DNA of 64,000 nucleotides, taken from contig NZ_CANMJE010000003.1 of NCBI RefSeq assembly GCF_947498095.1, positions 186,001 through 250,000 of the forward strand, given 5' to 3'. The notes below the pieces were generated by a model. That model searched no databases, had not been told where the DNA came from, and saw only the letters and a list, made by a program, of their open reading frames with translations. The DNA comes from an uncultured Shimia sp. GTDB lineage: Bacteria; Pseudomonadota; Alphaproteobacteria; Rhodobacterales; Rhodobacteraceae. The position numbers were made by a program, and so were the translations under genes. Below, piece after piece: positions 1-719 of this stretch; within the stretch, counting starts at the first letter, position 1; each line of letters starts with the position of its first letter.

Positions 1-59
1 TCGTCGAGGAGCTTGGCCCAAGCGTTCTGCAATTGGTCAAGGCAGCGACCTCCGAATAA
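1..59 (+). CDS. C-terminal end of an unidentified protein (partial)
   Basis: In the third forward frame the window opens inside a reading frame that ends with TAA at 57-59. The last 18 residues read VEELGPSVLQLVKAATSE, an amphipathic helix-like tail of ordinary composition. The other two frames give basic, Cys/Trp-rich sequence that looks like non-coding shadow. The product cannot be named from so little sequence. The stop lies about 48 nt before the next start, so the gene could be co-transcribed with the SRAP gene. Confidence 0.45.
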   Translation, partial: VEELGPSVLQLVKAATSE

Positions 60-107
60 CCTTCGGGCCGGCTTTCTCTGATGGGCATTGCACGCTAAAC
101 TGGCCTC

Positions 108-719
108 ATGCCCGGTCGCCTTTTTCTCACAACACCGATGCCCGACATCGCCACCTTTGCTGGGTACGACGCCGATTGCGTCGCGGGTGAGCCACCCCGC
201 CATAATATCCAACCCGGGCAAGAGATCGTCTGCCTCACATCAAAGGGGTTTGGCCGGATGCGGTGGGGGATTGTGCCTGTGGGACGCGTCAACGCCCGAG
301 GTCGTCCCGTGATGGAGACCATTATCAACGCGCGGTCAGAAACGGTCTTTGACAAATCCGCTTTTGATGGCGTGGGTCGGGCTGTTGTGATTGTCGACGG
401 GTGGTATGAATGGACCGGTGAGAAGCGCCGGAAAACCCCGTGGCGCATTTTTGGCCCCAAGCCCCTGATCTTTGCCGCCATCACCGACACATGGACCGCG
501 CCGGGTGGTTTGAAAGTGCCGCAGGTTGCCACGATCACATGCGAACCCAACGCCGACATCAAACCGATCCACCATCGCATGGGGGTCTTACTGGCACCTG
601 AGAACATCACGCTCTGGCTGAGCGGAGACGAAGACGCGATCACGCGCCTGATGACGCCCTGGCCCGATGGGCGCCTTACGGTAGAAGAGGCAAAGGGCGT
701 GGATTGGAGCGCCCCATAG
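108..719 (+). CDS. SOS response-associated peptidase family (SRAP/YedK/HMCES-like) protein with Pro in place of the catalytic Cys
   Basis: SRAP proteins bind abasic sites in single-stranded DNA and shield them through a covalent link made by Cys2 after Met1 is removed. This 203-aa protein keeps the family signatures: RHNIQPGQ (31-38), NARSET (74-79), GWYEW (98-102, with the acidic residue Glu101) and HHRM (155-158). Its start reads Met-Pro-Gly-Arg instead of the usual Met-Cys-Gly-Arg. An in-frame stop at 96-98 leaves ATG 108 as the only sensible start, so the missing Cys is not a start-site error. If Met1 is removed, the new N-terminus would be proline, a secondary amine. The family call is firm. 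The chemistry of this variant is unknown. Confidence 0.88.
   Translation: MPGRLFLTTPMPDIATFAGYDADCVAGEPPRHNIQPGQEIVCLTSKGFGRMRWGIVPVGRVNARGRPVMETIINARSETVFDKSAFDGVGRAVVIVDGWYEWTGEKRRKTPWRIFGPKPLIFAAITDTWTAPGGLKVPQVATITCEPNADIKPIHHRMGVLLAPENITLWLSGDEDAITRLMTPWPDGRLTVEEAKGVDWSAP

Follow-up and report, generated by a model that had tools for sequence, protein, structure and literature searches.

A subfamily of SRAP proteins carries proline in place of the cysteine at residue 2 (Pro2 for Cys2). This subfamily is real, conserved, and so far unremarked, and, as far as sampled, the Pro2 clade is restricted to one bacterial family. One member is encoded in the window, i.e., the whole 64,000-nucleotide stretch of Shimia DNA analysed here. 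We regard it as an even call whether these proteins react with ring-opened abasic sites through an iminium on their N-terminal proline, and so cut single-stranded DNA (ssDNA) or hold it reversibly. PMC3765255 describes the SRAP cysteine as absolutely conserved and always second. A search of the open-access literature, with subscription papers and preprints outside its scope, found no paper on a Pro2 SRAP, which is weak evidence of absence.

The Pro2-SRAP gene occupies positions 108..719 of the window (+ strand) and encodes a 203-residue protein, identified from its open reading frame, its Pfam match, an AlphaFold2 model, and Foldseek matches to YedK and HMCES structures. The protein begins MPGRLFLTTP, with Met-Pro-Gly-Arg (108..119, +) written ATG-CCC-GGT-CGC. 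Residues 1-192 match the SRAP family (PF02586) with 123.9 bits (E = 9e-36; cut-off 27.1), no other Pfam family is found at E <= 1, and there is no Fpg-type domain. By sequence, the closest solved chains are the SRAP domains of HMCES and YedK. When the clade profile is aligned with YedK 2-180, Pro2 falls on Cys2, E101 on Glu105, and H155 on His160, the last two pairings having been obtained by counting along the alignment. The motifs NARSE (residues 74-78), GWYEW (98-102), and HHRM (155-158) are all present. They include N74-A75-R76 (327..335, +), the counterpart of the YedK Asn75 region, in which N74 and R76 do not vary within the clade; GWYEW itself (399..413, +), with E101 matching the catalytic Glu105; and H155-H156-R157 (570..578, +), with H155 matching the catalytic His160. 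The sequence-only reading had described an SRAP in which Cys2 is replaced by proline and the remaining active-site elements are kept, with an upstream start excluded; each part stands, the last because an in-frame TAA at 96..98 (+) fixes the start downstream. An antisense open reading frame (95-763, -) overlaps the gene, and a cold-shock-domain protein gene (PF00313; 776-982, -) lies convergent with it.

The AlphaFold2 model of the window protein has a mean pLDDT of 91.6 and a pTM of 0.89. Foldseek returned 21 chains at E <= 0.001, all SRAP structures as far as titles and PDB codes show, including 6NUA and 8D2M, with TM scores of 0.62-0.81 by query length and rmsd values of 3.9-5.9 Å. The fits of the model to YedK are moderate (TM 0.73-0.75, rmsd about 4 Å). 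With PF02586 as its only family and SRAPs as its fold matches, the window protein does not have the Fpg/Nei fold.

Proline at the start is a property of the relatives as well. A scan that took a single genome from each species and used six peptide patterns, the N-terminus not among them, found 127 relatives, the best 80 of which were read (loci L003-L082). All of these best 80 of 127 begin with Pro-Gly-Arg, preceded by ATG in 68, GTG in 9, TTG in 2, and AGG in 1, so that proline directly follows a usual start codon in 79 of the best 80. The exception, L064 (3960-4010), comes from a metagenome bin, where the stop of the upstream tesA-like gene lies 4 bases before the Pro codon; its AGG reflects either an error in sequencing or an atypical start. 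Across the 119 Pro2 sequences gathered, the start codons are 100 ATG, 16 GTG, 2 TTG, and 1 AGG, and codon 2 is CCN in 119/119; cysteine is absent as residue 2 from the window protein and from every clade member (119/119). These counts include 38 proteins cut out by means of the Pro start and a GWYEW check, with no failures among those tried, and three of the 38 (L182, L186, L187) were originally found by the Pro2 pattern itself. An annotation or sequencing artefact, in which the gene really starts elsewhere or is a degenerate copy, is very improbable. The AGG of L064 is the one observation in its favour; against it are the window's own in-frame stop, the 79 of 119 sequences in which a stop lies at most 20 codons upstream with no start codon in between, the lack of any broken frame, and invariance over 111 distinct proteins. 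Nor can a cysteine be supplied by an upstream start, given the stop at 96-98 and the starts of the relatives.

We traced codon changes on a FastTree phylogeny of the 111 distinct proteins (119 Pro2 sequences), built with the first four residues left out. Codon 2 has changed at least 33 times among CCG, CCC, CCA, and CCT with no amino-acid change, and the start codon itself at least 15 times. Similarly, N74, E101, and H155 show at least 36, 27, and 28 codon changes, respectively, and no amino-acid change, in contrast to residue 5, with at least 26 amino-acid changes, and residue 10, with 25. This invariance rules out random loss or a pseudogene. The Asn, Glu, and His set of the Cys2 cross-linkers is present in the clade as N74, E101, and H155, and the loss of pocket conservation among relatives, which the sequence-only reading had named as a refutation of its proposal, did not appear. 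The same counts bear on the proposal that the chemistry has been lost and that Pro2 SRAP is now only a binder of DNA or abasic sites, or a regulator of the Cys2 paralogue. The thiol is indeed gone, and it is kept by all 68 other SRAPs compared, 37 of them fetched by an MCG or Cys-related start. However, the retention of Pro2, E101, and H155 through 33, 27, and 28 codon changes is unexpected for a dead enzyme, and proline is retained with every type of start codon; we consider loss of chemistry quite unlikely.

The question of whether SRAPs beginning MPGR form a conserved clade, raised from the sequence at the outset, is answered in the affirmative by the 80 relatives, by a search of genomes, and by a tree. 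In 248 genomes of the same family, 35 matches to the clade profile reach at least 279 bits, the next best scoring 141.7, and all 35 begin M- or V-PGR. An MCGR start is found in the 31 best Pfam hits of the family, in the 26 other best hits read from the class, and in five transition hits. A class sample of 337 genomes gave only four matches at the level of at least 279 bits, all in the same family. The Pro2 DNA pattern occurs in 6/398 genomes of the phylum, within which alone the spread was sampled, and every one belongs to the same family as the window; with Cys2 in place of Pro2, the pattern occurs in 21/200 genomes from several families. The Pro2 pattern misses part of the clade, recovering 67 of the 80 loci L003-L082 and passing over G497, which has the gene. 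The relatives belong to Shimia, Ruegeria, Tateyamaria, Sulfitobacter, and other roseobacter types, or come from bins labelled Rhodobacteraceae, Paracoccaceae, or Alphaproteobacteria; the lineage was checked for Shimia only (Rhodobacterales, Roseobacteraceae). In a tree of 98 SRAPs, the 34 Pro2 rows group as a single clade (SH-aLRT 99) whose stem measures 1.29 changes per column, and the MCGR proteins of the family (98) and the MCNLYS proteins (100) form separate clades. The long MCNLYS and Pro2 branches meet, as a warning of the tree program indicates, leaving the relative placement of both unsure. An origin from mobile elements was considered and rejected: matches numbered 38 in phage records and 1295 in plasmid records, none reaching 60% identity, and the four matches of the Pro2-SRAP DNA pattern in viral contigs included none reading as SRAP.

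Genomes with the Pro2 gene usually also encode an SRAP that scores as canonical. The window genome has a second SRAP on another contig, starting MCGRFAIT and scoring 232 bits, and a Pfam SRAP match of at least 213 bits, the level of the Cys2 type, is present in 31 of the 35 that carry the Pro2 gene. The four without are G078 and G146 (both about 83% complete) and G171 and G221 (both about 99% complete). Pro2 SRAP therefore adds to the shield and does not usually replace it. The Pfam genome search misses weak SRAPs (G049 and G174 were unmatched, yet MCNLYS-type proteins exceed the Pfam cut-off), and the family counts are therefore lower bounds. This third SRAP type of the same bacterial family starts MCNLYS or MCNLYT and carries the motifs NIRN, SFSE, and HPKAMPV. 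Both it and the Pro2 type are divergent paralogues of one family, but the MCNLYS type forms its own clade and keeps Cys2 in 13/13 rebuilt proteins (L194-L201, L204-L206, L209, L210).

The gene neighbourhood is partly conserved. A GDSL hydrolase of the tesA type is the next same-strand upstream gene in 74 of 81 loci, the window genome included, where its 3' end lies at 1..59 (+), with the gene start outside the window. Sixty of the 74 calls were made by motif, 12 by the variants GDSLTHG and GDSLTEG, and the remaining two (L041, L064) only by likeness of their C-termini to the others; a GDSL Pfam match was obtained for the tesA-like relative in L022, the one gene checked. The gap to the SRAP gene is at most 13 bp in 65 of the 72 motif-bearing loci and 48 bp in the window, an arrangement that suggests an operon. 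Downstream genes differ among loci, and no DNA-repair gene was found as a conserved operon partner in the loci compared. The sequence GTTC-N7-GTTC, which we take to be a LexA-like (SOS) box, was absent in exact form, as was its complement, from all 81 upstream stretches and likewise from all 81 in each of three control stretches. In five loci (e.g., L010:4612-5388), an exonuclease-III-like gene (Exo_endo_phos) lies convergent beside the Pro2 SRAP gene; this neighbour, of the AP endonuclease family, is possibly there by chance.

Around a shared catalytic core, the Pro2 clade has a second shell of its own. Comparing the 119 Pro2 sequences with 68 Cys2 SRAPs, we found that the initiator M, G3, R4, W53, P57, N74, R76, Y/F100, E101, W102, W129, T144, H155, and R157 are common to both, with little or no change. 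The comparison set is not independent of the start: an ATG-TG[CT]-GG start served to delimit its 32 class and transition proteins, and a CGR start its 31 family proteins, with no failures among the loci tried. The largest difference is a clade-specific loop, G59-M69 (GRVNARGRPVM in the window protein; 282..314, +), which replaces a Trp-bearing segment. G59 stands where 68/68 Cys2 SRAPs have Trp, and a three-residue insert follows within the motif GRxNARGRPVM, in which R60, A63, R64, G65, and R66 are present in 119/119; the loop is among the weaker stretches of the model (block means 76-86). In YedK, the Trp segment adjoins DNA. Furthermore, the clade has W99 where Cys2 SRAPs have Phe or Tyr, G or A at residue 159 where 68/68 have Pro, and A124, Q139, and P147 as additional features, and it is without the C-terminal segment bearing V and N (62 and 63 of the 68 Cys2 SRAPs, respectively). 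Compared with YedK and HMCES, the canonical Cys2 SRAPs of PF02586, the Pro2 clade is thus alike in sequence family, fold, and the counterparts of Asn75, Glu105, and His160, but differs in having Pro for Cys2, a basic loop for the Trp segment, W99 for F, and G/A159 for P, and in the absent VN segment. Its own invariant loop and second-shell features indicate that the clade is constrained for something of its own. As a separate observation, Cys145 (540-542 of the window) adjoins the counterpart of YedK Thr149 in 118/119 Pro2 proteins, as it does in 12/68 Cys2 SRAPs, and is a thiol near the pocket.

Since the second shell is changed and the YedK fits are moderate, the substrate of Pro2 SRAP may differ. 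The pocket might have been retuned to another carbonyl, e.g., 3'-unsaturated-aldehyde ends, abasic RNA, or some other nucleic-acid or small-molecule aldehyde, with proline as nucleophile or general base. Consistent with such retuning are the invariant GRxNARGRPVM loop, W99, G159, Q139, P147, the lost VN segment, the long stem branch, and a partner gene that encodes a GDSL hydrolase rather than a repair protein. However, R4, W53, N74, R76, E101, T144, H155, and R157 are all retained, which fits the same kind of substrate, and we hold a retuned pocket to be unlikely.

An abasic-site chemistry for Pro2 SRAP can be outlined by analogy. Met1 would be removed by methionine aminopeptidase; the Fpg of the window's genome starts MPELPE, and the Fpg enzyme class requires Met-Pro processing. 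Glu101 and His155 would then open the abasic sugar ring, and the secondary amine of proline would attack C1' to give an iminium. Closure to a thiazolidine requires a thiol, which proline lacks, and the adduct is therefore expected to end in beta-elimination, with strand cleavage, or to hydrolyse back. At abasic sites in ssDNA, Pro2 SRAP would thus be an AP lyase, or else a clamp of short life, alongside the cell's canonical Cys2 shield.

PMC9436759 describes the corresponding reactions of YedK: the first attack is made by the N-terminal amine, ring opening falls to Glu105 and His160, and the thiol serves only to close the final ring. For the C2A mutant of YedK, the same paper reports a Schiff base that is made by the N-terminal amine, can be trapped with borohydride, and is seen in crystal 8D2M, as well as cleavage of AP-DNA; the two activities depend on Glu105 and are much weaker in C2A E105Q. 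The C2A mutant resembles the Pro2 clade in offering an N-terminal amine without a thiol in an intact SRAP pocket, for which a Schiff base and lyase activity are predicted; it differs in that it was made in the laboratory and offers a primary amine, whereas the Pro2 clade is natural, its amine secondary and its second shell remodelled. A second parallel comes from Nei2, described in PMC11323726 as an AP beta-lyase on ssDNA with Pro2 as its nucleophile, which is needed, and with Met1 absent from the crystal. Fpg, Nei, and Nei2 share with Pro2 SRAP the Met-Pro start and a proline presumed to be the nucleophile, but they are unrelated in fold and sequence. Given the published YedK C2A data, a Schiff-base/lyase mechanism becomes more plausible for Pro2 SRAP. 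We tentatively propose, at somewhat less than an even chance, that selection has converted the SRAP scaffold, once a shield of abasic sites, into an AP lyase with an N-terminal proline, kept beside the Cys2 shield.

Lyase action by YedK C2A is slow (0.05, compared with 1.7 for the trapped Schiff base, in figure-legend units; PMC9436759), so cleavage might not be the job of Pro2 SRAP. The missing C-terminal VN segment and the lack of a conserved repair-gene partner also count against an abasic-site lyase or clamp. The protein could instead be a reversible clamp whose proline iminium hydrolyses back, giving brief shielding of AP sites with no lasting cross-link and no cutting. The same sequence evidence that serves the lyase reading serves this one, and the Schiff base of YedK C2A forms far faster than cleavage proceeds; canonical SRAP adducts are themselves reversible, again according to PMC9436759. 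Yet YedK C2A does cleave, and so do N-terminal-proline enzymes of the Fpg/Nei type, and a clamp that never cuts appears rather improbable.

SRAP has so far been described by an absolutely conserved Cys2, and the Pro2 clade represents the natural counterpart of the C2A experiment. It raises the question of whether the SRAP fold supports a second chemistry, and whether that chemistry is lyase or reversible. If the lyase reading is true, Pro2 SRAP would be convergent with Fpg/Nei in nucleophile and not in fold, having arrived independently at the strategy of a lyase with an N-terminal proline. Opposing SRAP paralogues would then be predicted within one cell, which could either protect or cut abasic sites in ssDNA.
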